This document shows, piece by piece, positions 10,144 through 22,486 of a stretch of DNA of 64,000 nucleotides. Position numbers and translations under genes: made by a program. The first letter of the stretch is position 1. Every line of letters begins with the position of its first letter. This DNA comes from an uncultured Paracoccaceae bacterium (GTDB lineage: Bacteria; Pseudomonadota; Alphaproteobacteria; Rhodobacterales; Rhodobacteraceae): NCBI GenBank assembly GCA_937895435.1, contig CALAXT010000072.1:1-64000 (forward strand), given 5' to 3'. The notes beneath the pieces are model-generated. The model saw only the letters and a list, made by a program, of their open reading frames with translations. It was not told the origin of the DNA and did not search any database.

Positions 10144-10902
10144 ATGTCACAGACCATTCGCCACCCCGAAATTCTCGAAGCCGCCCGGCGCCAAGGCAAA
10201 GTCACGGTTGAAGGGCTGGCTGAGCAATTTGGGGTGACCTTGCAAACCATCCGCCGCGACCTGACCGAACTGGCAGACGCGGGTAAGTTAGAGCGGGTGC
10301 ATGGCGGCGCGATCTTACCCTCTGGCACCACCAACATTCTTTACCAAGAACGCCAAACCCTGAACCAAGTCGCAAAACGTGATATTGCGCGGGCCTGTGC
10401 CCGGCATATCCCGGATGGCAGCTCACTTTTTCTAAACATCGGCACCAGCACCGAGGCAGTCGCCCGGGAATTGCTGCACCACCGCGATTTGATGGTGGCA
10501 ACCAACAATCTGAATGTCGCCAACACCTTGCTTGCCAATCAAGACTGTCAAATCATTTTGACTGGCGGTGCCCTGCGTCGTGCCGATGGTGGCCTGATCG
10601 GCCCACTGACCGTTGCAACCGTGTGCCAATTCAAGTTTGATTTTGCTGTCATTGGCTGTTCAGCGATGGATACAGATGGTGACCTGCTCGACTTCGACAT
10701 TCAAGAGGTCGGCGTTAGCCAAGCCATCATTGGACAATCGCGGCGGACCTTTTTGGTGGCAGATTGTTCAAAATTCACCCGTACAGCCCCCGCCAAAATC
10801 GCCTCTTTGTCAGAGCTTGACACGTTCTTCACCGACAAACCTCTGCCAGCGGCACTCTCTCAACGTTGCAAAGAGTGGCAGACCAAGGTTGTGATCAGCT
10901 AG
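10144..10902 (+). CDS. glpR: DeoR-family repressor of glycerol genes
   Basis: A 252-residue regulator with an N-terminal DeoR winged helix-turn-helix (HPEILEAARRQGKVTVEGLAEQFGVTLQTIRRDL, then LERVHGGA) and a C-terminal sugar-phosphate sensor domain with LNIGTSTEAVAR and GGALRRADGGLIGP. Such proteins normally lose DNA binding in the presence of glycerol 3-phosphate. Divergent from glpD with the tandem TTTCG repeats between them. Its 3' end overlaps the convergent ackA by 8 bp. Confidence 0.9.
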   Translation: MSQTIRHPEILEAARRQGKVTVEGLAEQFGVTLQTIRRDLTELADAGKLERVHGGAILPSGTTNILYQERQTLNQVAKRDIARACARHIPDGSSLFLNIGTSTEAVARELLHHRDLMVATNNLNVANTLLANQDCQIILTGGALRRADGGLIGPLTVATVCQFKFDFAVIGCSAMDTDGDLLDFDIQEVGVSQAIIGQSRRTFLVADCSKFTRTAPAKIASLSELDTFFTDKPLPAALSQRCKEWQTKVVIS

Positions 10903-12034
10903 GCATGACAGCCATCACCCCCACAGCCTCTCGCGCGATCTGGGCCTCTTCTTCGGCCGGAATGATCCAGATTGGCTGCTTGGCCGTTGCACGGTGAATG
11001 TGGCGCGCAGCTCTCACATTCGCGTCTTCATCAAGGTCCAATCCCAACCACGCCAACCCCTGAATGATTTGGGCGCGCACATGCGCATCATGTTCGCCGA
11101 TCCCACCGGTAAAGGCCACCGCATCCAGCCCCCCCATCGCCGCAATCATCGAGCCTGCGTGGCGCACCGCCCAATAACAAAAATGCGCAACTGCAAACGC
11201 TGCCTGCGGGGTTTTCGCAGCATGCAGCGCCCGCATGTCACTGTGCCCGCCCAGCGCCAACAACCCGCTTTCTTTGTTCAAGATTTCGCCCGCGCGGGCA
11301 ATGCCATGATCTGCGGCCAAGCGCAGTACGGCATTTCCATCCATCGATCCCGCCCGCGTGCCCATCGTCAGACCATCCAGCGGCGAATAGCCCATTGTTG
11401 TGGCGACAGACCGCCCATCTTTGATCGCACAGATTGAGGCGCCATTGCCCAAATGCAGCGCCAACAAGCGTGCCGGCATCTGGCCCGGACAAAGTTCAGC
11501 CACCCGGGCCACCAGCCCCGCATAGCTAAGCCCGTGAAAGCCAAAACGGCGCAGACCCGTGGCCTCTGCTGAGGCTGGGATGGCGTATCGGCGTGCCACA
11601 TCGGGATTGGTCGCGTGAAACGCGGTATCAAAACTGGCATATTGTGCCAAATTGGGTGCAACTGCGGCCAGCGCACGGATACCTGCCAGATTGGCCGGGT
11701 TGTGCAATGGCGCCAATGGCACGCAGGCCTCAATCGCGGCCTCAATCTGGGGGGTGATGCGGCAGGCCTGCACCAAATCGCCCCCACCATGCACCACCCG
11801 GTGCGCCGCTGCACGAAACGCTTCAACCGGCAGTCCGTTTTGTGCCAAGACGTCAAGCGCCAGTTGCAAAGCGGCCCGGTGATCACGAACGGCACAGGTC
11901 TGGCGATAAGGCCCAATCTCAACCCTGCCCAACCCACCGATTTCGCTGACCTGCCCCGAAAGCCGCGGCCGCAAATCGGCATCAAACACCGCCAGCTTGA
12001 CCGAGGACGATCCAGAATTCAGAACCAAAAGCAT
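10895..12034 (-). CDS. ackA: Acetate kinase
   Basis: Interconverts acetyl phosphate plus ADP with acetate plus ATP. The acetokinase signatures are clear: LVLNSGSSSVK at the N-terminus, HRVVHGG, SFDTAFHATNP, GFHGLSY, LHLGNGAS and TMGTRAGSMDGN. The length of 379 residues is slightly short but complete. Its ATG directly abuts the stop of the TSUP exporter gene, so it belongs to the taurine operon, where Xsc makes acetyl phosphate. A phosphotransacetylase is the usual partner of xsc and none is seen in this window. Confidence 0.93.
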   Translation of the reverse strand: MLLVLNSGSSSVKLAVFDADLRPRLSGQVSEIGGLGRVEIGPYRQTCAVRDHRAALQLALDVLAQNGLPVEAFRAAAHRVVHGGGDLVQACRITPQIEAAIEACVPLAPLHNPANLAGIRALAAVAPNLAQYASFDTAFHATNPDVARRYAIPASAEATGLRRFGFHGLSYAGLVARVAELCPGQMPARLLALHLGNGASICAIKDGRSVATTMGYSPLDGLTMGTRAGSMDGNAVLRLAADHGIARAGEILNKESGLLALGGHSDMRALHAAKTPQAAFAVAHFCYWAVRHAGSMIAAMGGLDAVAFTGGIGEHDAHVRAQIIQGLAWLGLDLDEDANVRAARHIHRATAKQPIWIIPAEEEAQIAREAVGVMAVMPS

Positions 12035-12793
12035 CTAAACCACCGATTTAATCAAACCCATCACCGCCAACCCCGCCAATAAGATCAGCGCAAGACGGCG
12101 AAACTCTTGTGGGTCTGTTTTCAAAAAATGGCGCCCACCCAGCGCGATCCCAGCCCCGATAAACGGCAACGACAGCCCCACTGCATAAAGCGTGTCCCAC
12201 GTCACCATTCCATGCAACCACATCACCGGTGCCGAATACAGATCAAGCAGGGCAAAGTACAAAATCAACGTCGCCCGAAAGACAACAGCCGGGATGCGCT
12301 GCGCTGCAAAAAATGTGGCCACAGGCAATCCCCCCATGCCGGGCGCATTGGCCAAACCTGATAAAAGCCCTGTCAGCACATGCGCGCCCCGCCCAACCTG
12401 CCCGCGCAATGTCCAGCCTGCCAATAAAACCCCACACATAACCAACACATAAATGGCAATAACGCCGCGCGCAGCATCTGCGCTGATCCCCGTCAATGCC
12501 CAAAGGCCCAACGGCAGCCCCACCACCGCCCCAACCATCAACAGCCCGACACGCCGCCACGCAACATCGCGCCAGACGCCTGACCATTGCTGCGCTGTCA
12601 TCAAGAATTCGCAGAACATGACAACGGCCACAAAATTCAGCGGGTTCGTGACCAAGGATGACGCGCTCACAATCAGCGCCGAAAAACCAAAGCCCGAATA
12701 CCCGCGCACAAAGGCCGCCACAAAAAATGCAAACGCCATATAGCCCGCCGCCAGCGGTGACATTTCAAACGGCAGAACAACAGCCAGCGTCAT
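12035..12793 (-). CDS. tauE: TSUP-family membrane transporter, probable sulfite exporter
   Basis: A 252-residue protein of the TauE/SafE (TSUP) family with about seven or eight hydrophobic segments, starting around residues 14-30 (AAGYMAFAFFVAAFVRG), with the family-like YSGFGFSALIVS near the N-terminus and NAPGMGGLPVATFF in the second half. It lies between xsc, which releases sulfite, and ackA, so export of sulfite is the likely role. The family is certain; the substrate is inferred from context. Confidence 0.78.
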   Translation of the reverse strand: MTLAVVLPFEMSPLAAGYMAFAFFVAAFVRGYSGFGFSALIVSASSLVTNPLNFVAVVMFCEFLMTAQQWSGVWRDVAWRRVGLLMVGAVVGLPLGLWALTGISADAARGVIAIYVLVMCGVLLAGWTLRGQVGRGAHVLTGLLSGLANAPGMGGLPVATFFAAQRIPAVVFRATLILYFALLDLYSAPVMWLHGMVTWDTLYAVGLSLPFIGAGIALGGRHFLKTDPQEFRRLALILLAGLAVMGLIKSVV

Positions 12794-12857: not shown

Positions 12858-14633
12858 TCAGACGACCTGCTCACGCATATCAGCGGCTGAAATTCCGGCA
12901 ACAGCCACCGGCTTTTTCATCGCATCGCGGCGGAAGGGCTCGCCCAGTTCTTGATTGATCATCGCCTCAATCAAGGTCGTTTTGCCGTGGGTCATCTGAT
13001 CATCAATGGCTTTGGCCAGCGCCTCGCGCAGCTCATCCATCGTGTGAACCACGACACCTTGCAACCCGCACGCCTGCGCCATCTTGGCATAAGACACGCT
13101 GGTATCCAGTTCGGTTCCCACAAAATTGTCGTCATACCAAAGCGTTGAGTTGCGCTTTTCCGCACCCCATTGATAGTTGCGGAACACAACTTGGGTGACA
13201 GCTGGCCATTCAAGGCGACCAATTGCCGTCAATTCGGTCACAGCAATCCCAAAAGCACCATCGCCTGAAAACCCAACCACAGGCACATCTGGGCAGCCAA
13301 TTTTAGCCCCCACCACTGACGGCAGACCGTATCCACAGGGGCCAAACAGCCCAGGCGCCAAATATTTGCGCCCCTCATCAAAGGTTGGATAGGCATTGCC
13401 GATGGCGCAGTTATTCCCAATATCAGACGAAATAATGGCATTGCGCGGCAGCGCTGATTGAATGGCACGCCACGCCATGCGCGGGCTCATCCAATCTGGC
13501 TTGGCATCACGGGCGCGCTGATTCCAGCTGGTGCCGGGGTCGTCATCTTCGTGATCCATGCTGGACAGTTGCTGGGCCCAGGCTGATTTGGTCTGCGCAA
13601 TCGTCGCACGCCGCGCATCACGCCCAGCATCGCCCGCGGTGTCTGACAGTCGCGCCAACAGCGCCTCAGCCACTTTGCGGGCATCTCCGATGATTCCGAC
13701 TGATACCTTTTTGGTCAAGCCAATCCGATCAGGATTGATATCAACTTGAATGATTTTGGCGGTCTTGGGCCAGTAATCCAACCCATAACCCGGCAGCGTT
13801 GAGAATGGGTTGAGCCGGGTGCCCAGACACAGCACCACATCGGCCTGTGCAATCAACTGCATCCCAGCCTTTGATCCGTTATACCCCAGCGGCCCCGCAA
13901 ACAACGGATGGGTGCCGGGAAATGCGTCATTGTGCTGATAGCCGACACACACCGGCGCATCCAGCCGCTCAGCCAGCGCCATCGTGGCCGGGATCGCACC
14001 GCCCAAAACAACCCCAGCCCCATTCAAAATCACCGGGAATTTCGCCGAAGACAACAGATCAGCCGCAGCCGACAGCGCCGCATCGCCCCCCGATGGGCGT
14101 TCGAACGCCACGATTTCGGGCAGATCGATATCAATCACCTGCGTCCAGAAATCACGCGGCATGTTGATCTGTGCCGGGGCCGAGGCGCGGCGGGCGTTCA
14201 TGATGACGCGATTAAGAACCTCGGCCACGCGCGCCGGGTCGCGCACTTCTTCTTGATAGGCCACCATGTCTTTGAACAGCGCCATCTGTTCCACTTCTTG
14301 AAACCCGCCCTGACCAATCGTTTTGTTTGCAGCCTGCGGCGTAACCAAGAGCAGCGGCGTATGGTTCCAATAGGCCGTTTTGACGGCGGTCACGAAATTG
14401 GTGATTCCGGGGCCATTTTGCGCAATCATCATGCTCATTTTGCCCGAGGCACGGGTATAGCCATCAGCCATCATCCCGCCCGATCCTTCGTGGGCACAAT
14501 CCCAAAAAGTAATGCCAGCTTTGGGAAACAAATCAGAAATTGGCATAAAGGCAGAACCGATGATGCCAAAGGCATGGCAAATCCCATGCATCTGCAAAAC
14601 TTTGACAAAGGCTTCTTCGGTGGTCATTCGCAT
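12858..14633 (-). CDS. xsc: Sulfoacetaldehyde acetyltransferase
   Basis: A thiamine-diphosphate enzyme that cleaves sulfoacetaldehyde with phosphate into sulfite and acetyl phosphate. The 591-residue protein has the N-terminal pyrimidine-binding domain (FGIIGSAFMPISDLFPKAG with the catalytic Glu region AHEGSGGMMADGYTR), a central domain, and the C-terminal diphosphate domain with SDIGNNCAIGNAYPTF and GDGAFGIAVTELTAIGRLEWP. ATG 14633 was chosen because AAGGAG precedes it by 8 nt; an upstream start adds residues not expected in Xsc. It follows tauR, and two ATAGGGCCAG repeats lie in the upstream gap. Confidence 0.95.
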   Translation of the reverse strand: MRMTTEEAFVKVLQMHGICHAFGIIGSAFMPISDLFPKAGITFWDCAHEGSGGMMADGYTRASGKMSMMIAQNGPGITNFVTAVKTAYWNHTPLLLVTPQAANKTIGQGGFQEVEQMALFKDMVAYQEEVRDPARVAEVLNRVIMNARRASAPAQINMPRDFWTQVIDIDLPEIVAFERPSGGDAALSAAADLLSSAKFPVILNGAGVVLGGAIPATMALAERLDAPVCVGYQHNDAFPGTHPLFAGPLGYNGSKAGMQLIAQADVVLCLGTRLNPFSTLPGYGLDYWPKTAKIIQVDINPDRIGLTKKVSVGIIGDARKVAEALLARLSDTAGDAGRDARRATIAQTKSAWAQQLSSMDHEDDDPGTSWNQRARDAKPDWMSPRMAWRAIQSALPRNAIISSDIGNNCAIGNAYPTFDEGRKYLAPGLFGPCGYGLPSVVGAKIGCPDVPVVGFSGDGAFGIAVTELTAIGRLEWPAVTQVVFRNYQWGAEKRNSTLWYDDNFVGTELDTSVSYAKMAQACGLQGVVVHTMDELREALAKAIDDQMTHGKTTLIEAMINQELGEPFRRDAMKKPVAVAGISAADMREQVV

Positions 14634-14718
14634 GGCGCAGGCTCCTTGATGTCTGGTCTCGCCGCATCGCAAAAATGGGGCGGTTGCGTCAAACCTTAGG
14701 GCCAAGCGCTGCGGGGCG

Positions 14719-14751
14719 ATAGGGCCAGCACCCTGACTGGAATAGGGCCAG
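14719..14751. promoter_or_regulatory. Two ATAGGGCCAG direct repeats upstream of xsc (putative TauR site)
   Basis: Identical copies lie at 14719-14728 and 14742-14751, 23 bp apart, immediately after the tauR stop and 86-118 bp upstream of xsc. Read on the coding strand they are CTGGCCCTAT, close to the CTGGACYTAA repeats that I recall being reported for TauR of Rhodobacter capsulatus. This suggests xsc has its own TauR-dependent promoter besides read-through from tpa. Confidence 0.6.
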
Positions 14752-16275
14752 TTACAAACCCGCAGATCCGGCCTTTTGGCCCTCGTGCGCGCGCAAGCCG
14801 CGCGCGATCAGCGCGATACCTTCGGCGATGCGATTGGCCGGGATTGAAGAATAAGCCAATCTATAAAATTCACACCCCACCCTACTGCTGCCAGAATCAC
14901 TGCTGCCAGAACCACTGGGGCCAAAAAACACCCGCCCCGGTTCAATCAGCACCCCCTGCTCGCGCAAGCGCAGCGCCAATTTTTCGGAATCACCGCCATC
15001 AGGCATCCGCATCCAAAAACTTGATCCGCCAAATTCTCCTTTTCCCGCAATCATCAGCCCTTCGGCGCGTATCGCCTCATCCATAATTGTGCGACGACGG
15101 CGATAGGCGGCTTTCATACGGTTGATCAGCGCATCATGATGGCCAAGCGACAAAAAATAAGCGGCGGTGCGCTGAATATGGCCGGGGGGGTGGCGCAACA
15201 CAGTGGCGCGCAGGGCGCGGGCCTCGTCAATAAACGCGGCTGGCCCGACAATGTAACCCAGTCGCAATCCCGGAAAAAGCGATTTGGAAAACGATCCCAA
15301 GTGGACAACCCGCCCATTGCGATCAAGCGACTTTAGCGACGGCGATACCGGCCGCAGAAACGACATTTCAAATTCGTAATCATCCTCGACGATCACCATA
15401 TCTTCTCTCTCCGCCCGCGCCAGCAAATCATGGCGACGCCCAAGCGGCAGGGTGGCATTGGTTGGGCATTGATGGCTGGGGGTGGTAAAAACCACATTCA
15501 CCCCGGCTGGTACCGCATCGGGGGGCAACCCCTCTTCGTCAACATCGACAAAGTGCATCTGCGCACCCGTTTGCGCCAAAATAGCGTGCAAGCCGGGATA
15601 GCTCGGGTTTTCCAATGCGCACACACGCCCCGGCCCCAACAACACCTCGGCCGCTAACCAAAGCGCGTTTTGTGCCCCCATCGTCAACAAAACCTCTTCG
15701 GGGCGTGCTTCAATGCCGCGGCGCGGCAAGATCGTGCGCAGAATATATTGGATCAAAAGCGGGTCATCACGTTCATAATAATCGCGGGTCAGCGCCTCAA
15801 AATCTTTGCGACCCAGCGCACGCAGCGCACATGCCCGCCAATTCTGGTGATCAAAAAGCGTCGGATCGGTCTGGCCATAAATAAAGGCAAACGGGTAATC
15901 GCGCCAATCTTCAGGGCGGGAGATGCGCGCGGGCGCAGAAAACCGACGCCCTGTTAGGGTTGCAAAATCAACCGCTTCACGTTTTGGGCCCATCTCAATC
16001 GGAAAAGCCGGGCCAGACGGCGCGCTTTGTGACACGAAATAGCCCGATCGCCCACGCGATACTAAATAATCATCAGATAAAAGCTCGGTATAGGCCAGGG
16101 TGACGGTAATCCGCGCAACCCCCAAATGTTGCGCCAAGCCCCGGGTTGAGGGCAGCTTTTCGCCTAATGGGAATCGCCCCGAAACAATTCCTTCGGCGAC
16201 CATCTGGCGAATACGCTGTTGCAGTGTGCCAGCCCCGGTTTCCGTCAATCGGAACGCTTCAACAGGGATCGCCAC
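14752..16275 (-). CDS. tauR: MocR/GntR-family taurine regulator
   Basis: An N-terminal GntR winged helix (LPSTRGLAQHLGVARITVTLAYTELLSDDYL) is fused to a class I aminotransferase-like PLP domain with VEDDYEFEMSF and the Schiff-base region HLGSFSKSLFPGLRLGY. This is the MocR architecture of TauR, which activates taurine genes. I place the start at GTG 16275 (507 residues) because GAGG sits just upstream; a GTG at 16317 is the alternative but would make the coding region overlap two CTGGCC-type repeats. The C-terminal part includes a local serine-rich insertion (GPSGSGSSDSGSSR). The order tpa-tauR-xsc is that known from Rhodobacter capsulatus. Confidence 0.88.
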   Translation of the reverse strand: MAIPVEAFRLTETGAGTLQQRIRQMVAEGIVSGRFPLGEKLPSTRGLAQHLGVARITVTLAYTELLSDDYLVSRGRSGYFVSQSAPSGPAFPIEMGPKREAVDFATLTGRRFSAPARISRPEDWRDYPFAFIYGQTDPTLFDHQNWRACALRALGRKDFEALTRDYYERDDPLLIQYILRTILPRRGIEARPEEVLLTMGAQNALWLAAEVLLGPGRVCALENPSYPGLHAILAQTGAQMHFVDVDEEGLPPDAVPAGVNVVFTTPSHQCPTNATLPLGRRHDLLARAEREDMVIVEDDYEFEMSFLRPVSPSLKSLDRNGRVVHLGSFSKSLFPGLRLGYIVGPAAFIDEARALRATVLRHPPGHIQRTAAYFLSLGHHDALINRMKAAYRRRRTIMDEAIRAEGLMIAGKGEFGGSSFWMRMPDGGDSEKLALRLREQGVLIEPGRVFFGPSGSGSSDSGSSRVGCEFYRLAYSSIPANRIAEGIALIARGLRAHEGQKAGSAGL

Positions 16276-16276
16276 A

Positions 16277-16308
16277 CTGGCCTCATCATGTTGGAAAACT
16301 GGCCCTAT
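16277..16308. promoter_or_regulatory. CTGGCC-type repeat pair before tauR (putative TauR site)
   Basis: CTGGCCCTAT at 16299-16308 and the related CTGGCCTCAT at 16277-16286 lie 22 bp apart, nearly the spacing of the pair before xsc but in the opposite orientation. They are just upstream of the chosen tauR start and suggest autoregulation. The second copy is imperfect and partly overlaps the ribosome site. Confidence 0.45.
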
Positions 16309-16319
16309 CAGCACCACAA

Positions 16320-16349
16320 ACAGGCGTCACCTGTCAAGGTGGCGCCTGT
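16320..16349 (-). terminator. Strong hairpin between tpa and tauR
   Basis: ACAGGCGTCACC (16320-16331) and GGTGGCGCCTGT (16338-16349) form a 12-bp stem with one mismatch around TGTCAA, starting 26 bp after the tpa stop. On the minus strand only TTTG follows, so it is a weak intrinsic terminator at best and may instead attenuate or stabilise the tpa transcript. Confidence 0.5.
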
Positions 16350-16374
16350 GCATCTTTCAAAGCCCGGCGTGAGA

Positions 16375-17769
16375 TCAGGAAAACACGCGGGTCAGCGCCT
16401 TGTCGATGGCCGCTGTGATTTCATCAATGTCATCAGGCGTGGCAATCAGCGCAGGTGACAGGCACAGCGTGTTATTAAGCCCCGGCAGACTGCGATTTGT
16501 CATGCCGATAATCACACCCTGTGCCATGCAATCGGCAACAACAGCAGCCACTTTCTTTTCATCAGCAGGCTCTCGGGTGGTGCGGTCAGCCACCAATTCG
16601 GCACCACAAAACAGCCCCTTGCCCCGCACCTGACCGATCACCCGATGCTTGTCTTGCAGCGCACGCAGGTTATCCAAAACGCGGGCCCCCATCAGGTTAG
16701 TGTTTTCAATCAAGCCCTCATCTTCGATGATCCGCATGTTTTCCAACGCCGCTGCCGGCCCCGAGGTGCAGCCACCAAATGTTGAAATATCACGGAAATA
16801 GCTCATTGGATCAGTGGGATCATCTTTGAACATCTCAAACACTGCCTCGGTGGTGACGGTGCAAGAAATCGCAGCATAGCCAGAGGCCACACCCTTTGCC
16901 ATCGTAACAAAATCAGGTTCAACCCCGTAATGCTGATAGCCAAACCAAGCCCCCGTGCGGCCGACGCCGCACACGACCTCATCAATATGAAGCAAAATAT
17001 TATATTTGCGGCAGATTTCCTGCACCCGCGGCCAATAGCCTTCGGGGGGAACAATCACACCACCACCCGCGGTGATCGGCTCCAGACATAGCGCACCGAT
17101 TGTGTCGGGGCCTTCGCGCAAGATAACCTCTTCAATCGCATCAGCGGCCCGCAGCCCATAATCGGGGCCGTCCCACTGTTTGCGATATTCCAGACAATGC
17201 GGCACTTCGACAAACCCTGGTGTCAGGGGGCCATATTGCATCACGCGTTGCGGCTGACCACCCGCGGACAATGTGGTGATGGTGGTGCCGTGATAATCGC
17301 GTTCGCGATACAATATCTTTGACTTACGCCCACCATGGTGGCGGTGCGAAATCTGCCGCACCATCTTAAAGACTTTTTCATTCGCCTCTGAGCCCGAATT
17401 TGAATAGTAAACCCGCGACATCCCAGGCATTTTGCTGATCAGACGTTCGGCGAATTGCGCGCCGGGCACCGAACCTGCGGAATTGGCGAAATAGTTCATT
17501 TTGATCAGCTGATCGCGCACCGCATCAGCAATCGACACCCGGCCATAGCCTACGTTAACGGTCCAAACCCCACCAGACACCGCATCCAGATGCTCTTTGC
17601 CAGTCGCATCCCAAACCCGCATCCCCTTGCCCTCAACAATGATACGCGGATCAATCGTTTCGAACGGTTTGTGCTGAATAAGATGATGCCAAACATGGGC
17701 GCGATCAGCCTCGATCACGGCGCTCATGTCATTTGAACGGTCGGCAGTCAGAGACGAGGACGAGGACAT
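16375..17769 (-). CDS. tpa: Taurine-pyruvate aminotransferase
   Basis: A class III PLP aminotransferase of 464 residues that converts taurine and pyruvate into sulfoacetaldehyde and alanine. After a serine-rich start it has ADRAHVWHHLIQHKPFE, typical of Tpa, then YYSNSGSEANEKVFKMVRQ, the PLP-binding LLHIDEVVCGVGRTGAWF and the Schiff-base lysine in DFVTMAKGVASGY. AAAGG precedes ATG 17769 at suitable distance. First gene of the tpa-tauR-xsc-tauE-ackA order and divergent from a Pot-type ABC importer. Confidence 0.93.
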   Translation of the reverse strand: MSSSSSLTADRSNDMSAVIEADRAHVWHHLIQHKPFETIDPRIIVEGKGMRVWDATGKEHLDAVSGGVWTVNVGYGRVSIADAVRDQLIKMNYFANSAGSVPGAQFAERLISKMPGMSRVYYSNSGSEANEKVFKMVRQISHRHHGGRKSKILYRERDYHGTTITTLSAGGQPQRVMQYGPLTPGFVEVPHCLEYRKQWDGPDYGLRAADAIEEVILREGPDTIGALCLEPITAGGGVIVPPEGYWPRVQEICRKYNILLHIDEVVCGVGRTGAWFGYQHYGVEPDFVTMAKGVASGYAAISCTVTTEAVFEMFKDDPTDPMSYFRDISTFGGCTSGPAAALENMRIIEDEGLIENTNLMGARVLDNLRALQDKHRVIGQVRGKGLFCGAELVADRTTREPADEKKVAAVVADCMAQGVIIGMTNRSLPGLNNTLCLSPALIATPDDIDEITAAIDKALTRVFS

Positions 17770-18175
17770 GGGGGTGCCTTTCTGGAAACCTTATTCTTCC
17801 TTCAACACCTGCCACCGCTCTGGCGATAGGGCCAGAGCGGTGATGTTCTTAATGCCAGTTAGGCCAGCGCACGGCTTAGTTTTGTCGTGGTGCTGACCCA
17901 TGCGTTATAATTGTGCTGCGAAAACGGGCGTTGAACCTTGATTGGGGGCGCCAACGCCCCTCAGGATCCCCCCAACCGCCCCATTGTTGCGAAATGATTG
18001 ACAGGTAACAAGAATCAGAGAACAAAAGATGGGCGATCAGACGGGTTTCAATCTTTTGACGAGGTTGCAGGGCTTGCTGAACGCACATGACGTTCGGCCG
18101 CAAGGCAGATCACAAAAACTGTGCCGCCCAGCCAGTGTTTGGTCAAAGGGCAGGCCTTCCAACGGGAGCTACCAG
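17770..18175. promoter_or_regulatory. 406-bp divergent control region, tpa / Pot-type importer
   Basis: No gene is seen here. ATAGGGCCAG at 17826-17835 lies within a longer inverted sequence (CTCTGGCGATAGGGCCAGAG), and a related GTTAGGCCAG is at 17858-17867. On the plus strand TTGTCG (17882-17887) and TATAAT (17906-17911), 18 bp apart, form a good sigma-70-like promoter pointing to the importer genes and placed 15 bp after the second repeat. On the minus strand the repeats end 57 bp before tpa. Binding of TauR here could drive both directions. Confidence 0.55.
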
Positions 18176-19312
18176 GTGACAAACGATACACTTTCTTTCA
18201 CGCGCCGCCGCTTTTTGCAAAGCACGGCCATCGGGGCCGGGGTTCTGGCCGCGCCCGCAATTATTTCCAGCGATGCACTTGCCTCATCAGGCGAAATGAA
18301 TTTGCTGATGTGGTCAGATGAATTCCCGGGCGATGTCGTGCCGAATTTCGAAAAGGCCACCGGCATTCGCGTCAACATGACACCATTCTCACAAAACGAA
18401 GAGCAGCTAAACAAGCTGCAAGCCACCGGTGGCGAAGGCTTTGATATTTGCTCGCCTACCGTAAACCGTGCGCCACAATACATGGAACTGGACGTTCTGG
18501 CCCCCTATGACATGGGGCGGTTGAAAAATATCGGAAACGTGCTGCCCTCTATGCTGAAAAGCTCAACCGATCTTTGGACGCACAACGGTGGCGTTTATCA
18601 TCTGCCACATTGCTGGGGATCTGAGGCGATTTCGTACCGCACCGACCGATACAGCGGCGATATGTCAAAGCTGTCTTACGGCACGCTCTGGTCCGAAGAA
18701 TTGAAGGGCCACACCCAAGGCCGCCCACATTCATGGCTGTTGTCGATCGGTCTTTGGATGGATCATACCGGCCAGATGCCGTCAAACCGCATGTTGGATG
18801 GCTATAAGGACCCGGACACTTTCAAAAAGCTTTGGGATCCGATTTTGGCCTTTGCGATTGATCATAAGTCATGGGTCAAACAGTTTTGGGATTCCGCTGA
18901 CAACACCAAATCAGGCCTGATGGAAAACGACGTAATCATGGGTCTGACATGGGATGGCCCGGCCCTGTCATTGAAAAAAGACGGCAAGCCGGTCAACTAT
19001 ACTGCACCAGTTGAGGGTGCGATCACATGGGTTGACGGTCTGTCAATGATGCGCAGTGCGCGCAACGTTGATGCGGTTTATGAATTCCTCAACTATCTGC
19101 ACACACCCGAAGTATCCGGCGCGGTGGCAGATGGTTCGGGCTATAACCCCGTTGTCAAAGGCGCCGACGGCTTTACCTCGGATGTGTTTAAGAAAAACTT
19201 CCAAGAGGCCTTCCCAGGCGACGCCTTGGACAATCTTTGGGCATGGCCACCAGAGGCTCCATGGTATGCGGAAATCCGCAGCCAATACGCCGATAAGTTC
19301 AAAGCGGCCTAA
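18176..19312 (+). CDS. ABC transporter binding protein, PotD-like, Tat signal
   Basis: A 378-residue extracellular solute-binding protein of the spermidine/putrescine class. GTG 18176 follows GGGAG by 7 nt and gives a twin-arginine signal (SFTRRRFLQSTAIGAGVLAAP, then ALASS); earlier in-frame ATGs would bury that signal. The mature start LLMWSDEFPGDVVPNFEKATG and the C-terminal Asp/Trp-rich region are PotD-like. First gene of a binding protein - ATPase - permease - permease set. Ligand unknown: polyamine by family, but the divergent tpa and TauR-like repeats make taurine or a related amine possible. Confidence 0.82.
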   Translation: MTNDTLSFTRRRFLQSTAIGAGVLAAPAIISSDALASSGEMNLLMWSDEFPGDVVPNFEKATGIRVNMTPFSQNEEQLNKLQATGGEGFDICSPTVNRAPQYMELDVLAPYDMGRLKNIGNVLPSMLKSSTDLWTHNGGVYHLPHCWGSEAISYRTDRYSGDMSKLSYGTLWSEELKGHTQGRPHSWLLSIGLWMDHTGQMPSNRMLDGYKDPDTFKKLWDPILAFAIDHKSWVKQFWDSADNTKSGLMENDVIMGLTWDGPALSLKKDGKPVNYTAPVEGAITWVDGLSMMRSARNVDAVYEFLNYLHTPEVSGAVADGSGYNPVVKGADGFTSDVFKKNFQEAFPGDALDNLWAWPPEAPWYAEIRSQYADKFKAA

Positions 19313-19338
19313 GGGCCGAGCTTTGCAAACTTTTATCA

Positions 19339-19367
19339 CCAGCCCCATTCTTGGGGCTGGTTTCCCT
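19339..19367 (+). terminator. Hairpin after the PotD-like gene (likely attenuator)
   Basis: CCAGCCCCA (19339-19347) pairs perfectly with TGGGGCTGG (19352-19360) around TTCT and is followed by TTTCCCTT. It lies 26 bp after the binding-protein stop and before the ATPase gene, where partial termination would favour the binding protein. Confidence 0.6.
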
Positions 19368-19525
19368 TGAAACGATTGCATTTGGCAAAGCCCCGGGTGC
19401 CAATTCCGGCACGTTTACGTTTTGTCCAAACGCAATTAATGCTTGGCCCAAACCCGCCCTTGTTGTGGTTTTCACCACGATAAGATGGCGCAAAATGGTT
19501 TTGGGTTGGTGCAAATAACAAAGGT

Positions 19526-20620
19526 ATGGGACGCATGAGTGCCAGCGTGGAACTTGATCACGTCACGGTAAAGTTTGGCCAATTCACCGCTGTGAAAGAC
19601 GCCGCTTTGGAAATCAGGGGCGGGGAATTCTTTTCCTTTCTGGGGCCGTCGGGCTGTGGAAAAACAACCATTTTGCGCACTGTGTCAGGTTTTTTAGAGC
19701 CCACCGACGGGGCTGTGCGCATTGCAGGCCAAGACATGGCAGGCATCGGCCCAAACAAACGCCCCACCGCACTGATCTTTCAGAATTTGGCGCTTTTTCC
19801 GCTGATGTCGGTGGCCGACAACATTACCTATGGGCTGCGCGTGCGCGGCATGTCATCAGGTGAACGGGCACGCAAAGCCGATGAGTTGCTGGAACTGATC
19901 GCCCTGCCCGGTCAGGGCAAAAAGCTTGTCTCTGAACTTTCGGGTGGCCAAAAACAGCGCGTGGCCATCGCCCGCGCGCTGGCGGTGCAGCCCAAAGTTT
20001 TGCTGCTGGACGAGCCGCTCTCCGCGTTAGATTTGAAACTGCGCCAACACATGCGCGCCGAATTGCGCGCCATTCAGCAGCAGGTTGGCATTACCTTTAT
20101 TTATATCACCCATGATCAGGGCGAGGCGCTGACAATGTCAGACCGTATCGCCGTGATGAGTGACGGCGTAATCCAGCAAATCGGTGATGGCCGCAGCGTC
20201 TATGACGCGCCTGACACCGCATTTGTTGCGTCTTTTGTTGGCGAGAACAACGCCTTTGCGGGGCAAATCACCCATGCTGATGCAGACAGTGCCGTGGTGC
20301 AGACCGACTTTGGCCCCCTGCGCGGGCGTAACCCCAAAGCGCTGAAACCCGGCGATCGCGCGGTGCTGTTCATTCGCCCCGAAGATCTGATCCCAGTGAC
20401 CGGCGCGGCCGACAGCACACTGTCCTCTTATGTTACCAACGTGTCGTTTGAGGGCAATATGACCCATGTTTACCTGAATGGTCAGGGGGCGCGTGAAATA
20501 TCGATGTCAATCGGGCGCCAGGGTGGCACAGACGTGCCGCAAAAAGGTACTGTGACCCCGCTCAGCTATCATGCGTCCAACGCCATCGTCTTGCCCGAAG
20601 GAACCATGGCCCGTGAGTAG
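19526..20620 (+). CDS. ABC transporter ATPase, PotA-like
   Basis: A 364-residue ATPase with canonical motifs: Walker A GPSGCGKTT, signature LSGGQKQRVAIARAL, Walker B VLLLDEPLSALD and switch histidine in YITHDQGEAL, followed by a TOBE domain (FIRPEDLIPV). ATG 19526 and ATG 19535 (MSASVE) are both possible starts; AAAGG is just upstream of the first. The 213-bp gap before it contains the hairpin but no other gene. Operon partner of the two downstream permeases. Confidence 0.9.
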   Translation: MGRMSASVELDHVTVKFGQFTAVKDAALEIRGGEFFSFLGPSGCGKTTILRTVSGFLEPTDGAVRIAGQDMAGIGPNKRPTALIFQNLALFPLMSVADNITYGLRVRGMSSGERARKADELLELIALPGQGKKLVSELSGGQKQRVAIARALAVQPKVLLLDEPLSALDLKLRQHMRAELRAIQQQVGITFIYITHDQGEALTMSDRIAVMSDGVIQQIGDGRSVYDAPDTAFVASFVGENNAFAGQITHADADSAVVQTDFGPLRGRNPKALKPGDRAVLFIRPEDLIPVTGAADSTLSSYVTNVSFEGNMTHVYLNGQGAREISMSIGRQGGTDVPQKGTVTPLSYHASNAIVLPEGTMARE

Positions 20621-21617
20621 CCGTCTTTTTGTCATTCTGATCCCGCTGATCGTCATTGCAATCTTCGCAATCTTGTCTTGGCGCGACACCCGCAACAATC
20701 CAGACCCAACCCGCAAAGGTTTCTTTGACCGCAATGGCACCGTCCTTGGGCTGGTCTTTATTGCGCTGGTGGGCTTTTGGATGCTGTTTTTGGTGGTTCT
20801 GCCCTATCTTTACATGGTCGTGGAGAGCTTTCACCCGAAACTCTCGCCCTCAAAACGCGGCGGGCCGGATGATGTGCTCACCCTGATGCAGTATAAATCG
20901 TTTTTCATCGAACCGCTGAGCGGCGATATGAACACGATCCACATGTGGGCCTTTGGCTATACCATTGTAATTTCACTGATTGTTACCGCTTTGAACTTTG
21001 CCATCTGCTATCCACTGGCGTATTACATGGCCCAGACAGGCACCGCGCGCAAAGTGCGTCTTTTGATGCTGGCGTTGATTATACCCTATTGGGTAAACGA
21101 AATTTTGCGCGCCTTTTCGCTGAGGCTTTTGCTCGCCTCAAAAGGGTTGATCAACCAAATGCTGATGGGCGTTGGTCTGACTGATGCGCCGATTGATTTT
21201 CTGGGCAATAATGTTGGGCTGTTTGTTGGCCTGTCTTATGCGTATCTGCTGATCATGGTCTTTCCGCTTTATAATGCAATCGAAAGCCTCGACCGCAACC
21301 AGATTGAGGCTGCGCATGATCTGGGCGCGCCTTGGTGGAAAATTCACCGCGACGTCGTGATCCCTTATGCAAAACCAGGCATCGCTTCGGGCTGTACGAT
21401 GGTGTTCATGCTGTCAGCCGGTTCACTGGCCGCACCACAGTTCTTGGGCGGGCCAAACACGCTGTGGTTTACCTCAGTTGTTTATGATTTCTTCTTTCAA
21501 TCGTTCAACTGGCCACGCGGGGCGGCCTATGCCTTTGTGTTGCTGTCAGCCTGTATCGCTTTTGTCATGATTGTGCTGCGGTTGTTCAAAGTCTCGCTGG
21601 GGGAAACAATCAAATGA
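20613..21617 (+). CDS. ABC transporter permease, PotB-like
   Basis: A 334-residue inner-membrane permease. GTG 20613 is chosen because GAAGGA lies about 9 nt upstream and the overlap with the ATPase gene is then only 8 bp. Two hydrophobic segments precede the core (about residues 4-22 and 45-70), with YPLAYYMAQTG and the coupling motif AIESLDRNQIEAAHDLGAPWW characteristic of the PotB/PotC type. Overlaps the next permease by ATGA. Confidence 0.88.
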   Translation: MSSRLFVILIPLIVIAIFAILSWRDTRNNPDPTRKGFFDRNGTVLGLVFIALVGFWMLFLVVLPYLYMVVESFHPKLSPSKRGGPDDVLTLMQYKSFFIEPLSGDMNTIHMWAFGYTIVISLIVTALNFAICYPLAYYMAQTGTARKVRLLMLALIIPYWVNEILRAFSLRLLLASKGLINQMLMGVGLTDAPIDFLGNNVGLFVGLSYAYLLIMVFPLYNAIESLDRNQIEAAHDLGAPWWKIHRDVVIPYAKPGIASGCTMVFMLSAGSLAAPQFLGGPNTLWFTSVVYDFFFQSFNWPRGAAYAFVLLSACIAFVMIVLRLFKVSLGETIK

Positions 21618-22486
21618 GCGCGCGTTTTGTGTTTAAGGCGATGATTGGCTTTTATATCGCGTTGTTTTTCCTCTATCTCTTTGGGCCGCTGATGGTCATG
21701 GCGGTCACGGCATTCAACACGCCCAACTATCCGCAGGCCTACCCGTTTGAAGCCTTTACACTGGATTGGTTCGTCAAACTTTGGAACCATCGTTCAATGA
21801 TGGCTGGGTTGCGCAATTCGGTCATTATTGGGATTGGGGTAGTGTTGCTGTCGGTGCCAGTCGGCTTGGCGGCCGCGATCATCATGGGCCAAATTTCATC
21901 GCGCGCCCGCGGGCTTTATTATCTGGTGACCGTCTCACCCGTTCTGACACCCGGGGTGATCATTGGGATTTCCACAGTGATTTTCTGGAAAGACGCGCTA
22001 AGCCTGACAGATGTCACCCGAGCAACATTTTACAACGGCACCATGCTGTCTATCTTTGGCCAATCCAGCTTTATCTCAGCCTACTGTTTGCTGATCATCA
22101 TGGCCCGCCTGCAACGATTTGATCGCACCCAAGAAGAGGCCGCACTGGATCTGGGTGCCAGCTATCCGCAGGTGTTTTGGCACATACTGCTGCCTTTTTT
22201 GCGCCCAGCACTGATCTCGGCATCTGTCATCGCCTTTTTGTCGTCGTTTGAAAACTATAACACCACCACCTTTGCCATTCTGGCCGACAAGACATTGGTG
22301 ACCGTGTTGGCAGGCGAGGTGCGCCAAGGCACGACCCCTGCCCTCTCAGCGCTGGCCGTTGTGATCATATCGATCTCTATTTTTGGCGCCGTGCTTTATG
22401 AGGTTTTAAAACGCCGTGAAGAAAACAAAACCACCCGCACCATGCGAAACGCCAAAGAGGCTGAGCGCAACGAAACCTATGCCTGA
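21614..22486 (+). CDS. ABC transporter permease, PotC-like
   Basis: A 290-residue permease with an N-terminal helix (about residues 8-30), VPVGLAAAIIMG, and the coupling loop RLQRFDRTQEEAALDLGASYPQVFW. ATG overlaps the stop of the upstream permease. The tail is unusually charged (KRREENKTTRTMRNAKEAERNE). Last gene of this importer; 285 bp without a recognisable gene follow before dusA, containing only a small inverted repeat GTTGCA/TGCAAC at about 22649-22665. Confidence 0.88.
   Translation: MSARFVFKAMIGFYIALFFLYLFGPLMVMAVTAFNTPNYPQAYPFEAFTLDWFVKLWNHRSMMAGLRNSVIIGIGVVLLSVPVGLAAAIIMGQISSRARGLYYLVTVSPVLTPGVIIGISTVIFWKDALSLTDVTRATFYNGTMLSIFGQSSFISAYCLLIIMARLQRFDRTQEEAALDLGASYPQVFWHILLPFLRPALISASVIAFLSSFENYNTTTFAILADKTLVTVLAGEVRQGTTPALSALAVVIISISIFGAVLYEVLKRREENKTTRTMRNAKEAERNETYA

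Follow-up and report, generated by a model that had tools for sequence, protein, structure and literature searches.

Sense and reversed operator pairs of a predicted TauR regulon in the taurine cluster of an uncultured Paracoccaceae bacterium

The short repeats found upstream of tpa, tauR and xsc in the genome of an uncultured Paracoccaceae bacterium are very probably operators of the adjacent MocR-family regulator TauR, which is predicted to activate tpa and xsc and to repress its own gene. These genes lie in the order tpa - tauR - xsc - tauE-like - ackA on the minus strand of the window, i.e. the whole stretch of 64,000 nucleotides that was analysed, with tauR adjoining the taurine-dissimilation genes tpa and xsc (Table 1). 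The proposal rests on the sequence of the repeats, their spacing and orientation, their conservation, their specificity across the genome, their co-occurrence with TauR and a conserved -10 position at xsc; from these we infer the binding of the protein, its effector and the direction of each effect.

Table 1. Features of the taurine cluster and its upstream regions, in order of position in the window.
Feature	Position	Strand	Remarks
ackA, acetate/propionate kinase	10895..12034	-	TIGR00016, PF00871; end of putative xsc-tauE-ackA unit
TauE/SafE-family exporter	12035..12793	-	Pfam PF01925; downstream of xsc
xsc, sulfoacetaldehyde acetyltransferase	12858..14636	-	NCBIfam TIGR03457, 924 bits against a cut-off of 676; ATG at 14636
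Box C, third repeat, TTGGCCCTAA	14696..14705	-	23 bp from box B, in register
xsc operator box B, CTGGCCCTAT	14719..14728	-	92 bp upstream of the xsc ATG
xsc operator box A, CTGGCCCTAT	14742..14751	-	adjoins the tauR stop codon; A/B pair conserved
tauR, MocR-type regulator (GntR wHTH and aminotransferase domain)	14752..16275	-	Pfam domains; revised, probable start
tauR operator proximal box, CTGGCCTCAT	16277..16286	+	ends 1 base before the likely GTG start, overlaps the ribosome-binding region
tauR operator distal box, CTGGCCCTAT	16299..16308	+	antisense to tauR; antisense 22-bp pair conserved
13-nt inverted repeat, possible tpa terminator	16320..16349	-	between tpa and tauR
tpa, class-III aminotransferase (taurine:pyruvate aminotransferase)	16375..17769	-	profile matches
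Perfect 12-bp inverted repeat, 6-nt loop	17813..17842	.	encloses tpa box 2
tpa operator box 2, CTGGCCCTAT	17826..17835	-	sequence search, alignment with relatives
tpa operator box 1, CTGGCATTAA	17849..17858	-	true partner, 23 bp from box 2
Extra box-like sequence, CTGGCCTAAC	17858..17867	-	out of register, 32 bp from 17826
Promoter-like TTGTCG-18-TATAAT	17882..17911	+	faces the divergent ABC cassette, at a distance of ~24 bp from tpa box 1
Polyamine-type (PotD/PotABC-like) ABC importer with binding protein, ATPase and two permeases	18029..22486	+	divergent from tpa; profile matches

A search of the window for CTGGCCCTAT on either strand returned exact copies just where the earlier note on this DNA had placed them, at 14719(-), 14742(-), 16299(+) and 17826(-), along with the weaker copy, CTGGCCTCAT (+), that it had reported at 16277; its spacings of 23 bp (14719/14742) and 22 bp (16277/16299) were likewise reproduced. 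The genome as a whole (2.66 Mb in 81 contigs) contains nine exact copies, four of which fall within the 3.15 kb stretch of the cluster, and the genome-wide count that had been proposed as a check thus bears out an enrichment at taurine genes. The five copies elsewhere are all situated inside open frames of 157-505 codons, and none of them has a partner box at 22 or 23 bp. At the density of these five, a stretch of 3.15 kb should contain 0.006 copies (Poisson P ~5e-11), a figure that is post hoc in that the motif had been picked from these very sites. The predicted functional unit is a tandem of boxes of the form YTGGNCYTAW placed 22-23 bp apart, and not the single 10-mer. When the whole genome was scanned for this unit (two YTGGNCYTAW boxes at a spacing of 23 or 22 bp, with ≤2 mismatches), tandem pairs with ≤1 mismatch were restricted to the taurine cluster, i.e. 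the sites are specific to the target promoters genome-wide. Pairs with 2 mismatches (4 and 5) were about as numerous as those of a reversed-pattern control (3 and 3), and no further genomic target of TauR is accepted, given that none appears at ≤1 mismatch.

The same operators recur across ~25 related genera. Homologues of TauR are present in 28 of 81 related genomes, and we compared 27 loci of relatives, scanning every spacing from 12 to 44 bp for box pairs with ≤1 mismatch: 35 such pairs were recovered in the 13.9 kb of tauR, tpa and xsc promoters as against 2 in the other 366.5 kb, and those in the promoters show spacings of 21-24 and 32-33 bp only. The orientation too is shared, with the pairs at xsc and tpa mostly in the sense direction at 23 bp and those at tauR antisense, mostly at 22 bp. 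Strict tandems occur in 10 of the 28 genomes with a TauR homologue versus none of the 53 without one (Fisher P ~7e-6; common ancestry of the genomes means that conserved sites are not fully independent), and the reversed-pattern control yielded none. The xsc operator at 23 bp extends to Dongia and other Rhodospirillaceae-type genomes, which are distant members of the Alphaproteobacteria, and lies 84-122 bp before xsc. The genome-wide specificity, a position, spacing and orientation that are conserved in these genera, and the co-occurrence with TauR together support the control of tpa, tauR and xsc by TauR that had been suggested earlier.

The regulator itself shows a GntR wHTH fused to a fold-type-I aminotransferase domain (Pfam PF00392 at residues 32-95 and PF00155 at 198-464), and its segment GSFSKS.FPGLRLG, which is conserved in an alignment of 14 homologues, presumably contains the PLP lysine. 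The closest named MocR model in NCBIfam is PdxR (324.5 bits against a cut-off of 320) and no TauR-specific model is found among the best 25 of 65 hits; hence, the name TauR rests on context and on homologues. In the C-terminal part of the protein, encoded near 14870-14930, there is a Ser/Gly-rich insertion, SGSGSSDSGSSRVG, that is absent from the aligned homologues and is encoded by the short DNA repeat ctgccagaatcactgctgccagaaccact. Residue 54 of the revised protein, within the DNA-binding domain, is an Ala (GVARITV) where all aligned homologues have a Ser (GVSRITV or GISRITV), a substitution that could relate to the variant of the box found here. As for the other genes, tpa is 73-85% identical to genes situated near tauR or xsc in relatives. 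The missing pta does not constitute a defect of the pathway, given that PTA-domain proteins are encoded elsewhere in the genome and that alternation of ackA and pta has been described (PMC5320631).

Upstream of tpa, the earlier note had reported a weak copy at 17858, and a box-like sequence, CTGGCCTAAC, is indeed present there, but the partner of 17826 is CTGGCATTAA at 17849, with which the sequence at 17858 shares one base. The combination of 17826 and 17858 (32 bp) was therefore discarded as the tpa operator, since 17849 occupies the conserved 23-bp register. No -10 of tpa is evident in this window from the promoter alignment. The perfect inverted repeat that encloses tpa box 2 is the sole perfect copy in the genome, which speaks against a dispersed repeat, and Rfam gave no match that would make the hairpin a known RNA; no counterpart was seen by eye at the tpa promoters of relatives. 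Promoter-like matches of the kind listed upstream of the divergent cassette are no more frequent in the region than expected by chance.

At xsc the repeats at 14742, 14719 and 14696 form a triplet in exact 23/23-bp register; the 23-bp pair described earlier is thus real, but an in-register third copy, TTGGCCCTAA, had been overlooked. Alignment of 16 xsc promoters on box 2 revealed, in 15 of them, a TA dinucleotide 29-31 bases downstream of the first base of that box, with no position beyond the neighbouring offsets reaching 5 of 16, and we read this conserved TA as the probable -10 of the promoter. In the window the final part of box C (CCTAAG) occupies this position; the box may accordingly be the -10 element, a genuine third box that would cover the -10, or both. 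We lean slightly towards the first of these, i.e. that box C is not a TauR site and the xsc -10 (CCTAA) happens to resemble the end of a TauR box one repeat further on, a reading to which we give marginal preference on account of the conserved TA and the coincidence with the -10 of the partial box-3 matches in three relatives (L041, L051 and L053). Against it, box C fits 10 of 10 positions of YTGGNCYTAW, beyond what a -10 needs, in exact 23-bp register, and MocR motifs with three direct boxes are known (PMC5320631, Table 2). The question is limited to box C, and either answer is compatible with the repeats being TauR operators.

The pair before tauR (16299/16277, 22 bp) is oriented opposite to the gene. 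The start of tauR is probably the GTG at 16275 (VAIPVEAF...) and not the GTG at 16317 of the longest open reading frame, since a MAIPVE-like beginning, which matches VAIPVE, is shared by most of the aligned homologues. With this start both tauR boxes would be intergenic, ending one base before the start codon; the earlier statement that all sites lie in gene-free gaps thus holds for the start at 16275, but not for the longest frame, inside which the tauR pair falls. The reversal of the site suggests autorepression rather than activation. Alternatively, the pair could be a relic operator of a divergent gene still present in relatives, such as a transport or catabolic tau gene: in some relatives tpa is not directly before tauR (the gap between the two is 1.9 kb in L040), and there the antisense boxes could serve such a gene. 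We consider this unlikely, for the pair stays at the tauR start codon in several loci where tpa, on the same strand, immediately precedes the gene, namely the window, L044, L047, L064 and L066 (it is degenerate in L042), and is therefore not merely the operator of a divergent gene. Far less probable still is that the repeats as a whole belong to another regulator, or to a dispersed repeat with no relation to TauR; the binding of TauR to them is a prediction, which leaves some room for such a reading, but the repeats are confined to the cluster, co-occur with TauR and match the published TauR consensus (PMC5320631).

Under the favored interpretation, namely that the repeats are TauR operators, TauR, together with PLP and with taurine as its probable effector, would bind the tandem 10-bp YTGGNCYTAW boxes, which are two helical turns apart. 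The boxes before xsc and tpa face the gene at a spacing of 23 bp. At xsc, where the boxes would be centred near -38 and -61, box B should reach into the -35 at its upstream edge, so that TauR would activate through contact with polymerase. At tauR the reversed 22-bp pair, predicted to sit on the ribosome-binding region and the start codon, should let TauR shut its own gene down; MocR proteins are described as often autorepressing (PMC5320631). This layout, with sense 23-bp pairs for activation and a fixed -10 at xsc on the one hand and, on the other, a reversed pair with 22-bp spacing at the start of the regulator, makes orientation-dependent activation versus repression by a single MocR protein directly testable. 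The rules of spacing and orientation and the correction of the tauR start go beyond the earlier note. Taken as a prediction, its notion of control at three points instead of one is right, but multi-operon control is already usual in reconstructed TauR regulons and the site at tauR is reversed.

By its sequence the cluster appears to belong to the known type of TauR regulon, with a box variant that is within the range seen among relatives. In Rhodobacter capsulatus, where a MocR-type protein likewise regulates taurine utilisation, TauR binds direct repeats CTGGACYTAA (PMC5320631, citing Wiethaus 2008), nearly the same 10-mer as here, and the likeness pointed out in the earlier note agrees with the published consensus. 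In the window tandem direct repeats resembling CTGGACYTAA lie about two helical turns apart at the target promoters; the main box, CTGGCCCTAT, differs at positions 5 and 10, both of which vary among relatives. Further differences from R. capsulatus are the triplet at xsc and the polyamine-type ABC cassette beside tpa, where that organism has tauABC. In reconstructed TauR regulons tpa and xsc are accompanied by tauE and by ackA or pta (PMC5320631), and the alphaproteobacterial regulogs share with the present cluster tpa, xsc, tauE, ackA (ackA for pta being described) and a direct-repeat motif, whereas the PotABC-type importer present here is not among the TauR targets in the text of that paper, supplementary tables aside. 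The TauR of Sinorhizobium meliloti is the taurine-dependent activator of a catabolic promoter, PtauA (PMC4254191), a role that is predicted for the present TauR as well; S. meliloti uses TauABC and the taurine dehydrogenase TauXY in contrast to Tpa here, and operator boxes are not described in the passages of PMC4254191 on its TauR.

The least expected element of the cluster is the divergent polyamine-type ABC cassette. Within the family only 3 of 395 genomes, this one included, carry a close version of it (E≤1e-120), and TauA (TIGR01729) has no match in this genome at E≤0.001. Among 32 loci with relatives of the cassette in other Alphaproteobacteria, some on short contigs, a TauR-like gene adjoins in 12 and an xsc-like gene in 9; other loci with relatives of the cassette have no sulfonate genes in their vicinity. 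Given that TauA was not detected and that relatives of the cassette adjoin xsc-like and TauR-like genes, it may import C2 sulfonates, and this uncharacterised transporter family is a candidate for such importers. We further propose, tentatively and as somewhat short of probable, that this TauR-associated cassette takes the place of TauABC and imports taurine or some other C2 sulfonate, with the tpa operator and the inverted repeat wrapped around it controlling both directions. Control of the cassette by TauR is purely hypothetical: no strict box pair precedes the binding protein in the xsc-linked cassette clusters of relatives, and just two other loci, L127 and L147, have antisense pairs at the cassette. 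The locus represented by L109/L128, from a groundwater proteobacterial MAG, has the order xsc - TauR-like gene - GMC-type oxidoreductase - Pot-type ABC cassette, where the oxidoreductase is assigned to the GMC family from our reading of its sequence; this is possibly an isethionate locus, with isethionate and not taurine as the potential substrate. In L059 a TauR-like gene (51% identity) is followed by a related Pot-type cassette that is divergent from an aminotransferase gene, and the box-like repeats CTGGATATAC and CTGGACATAT are found upstream of this cassette.
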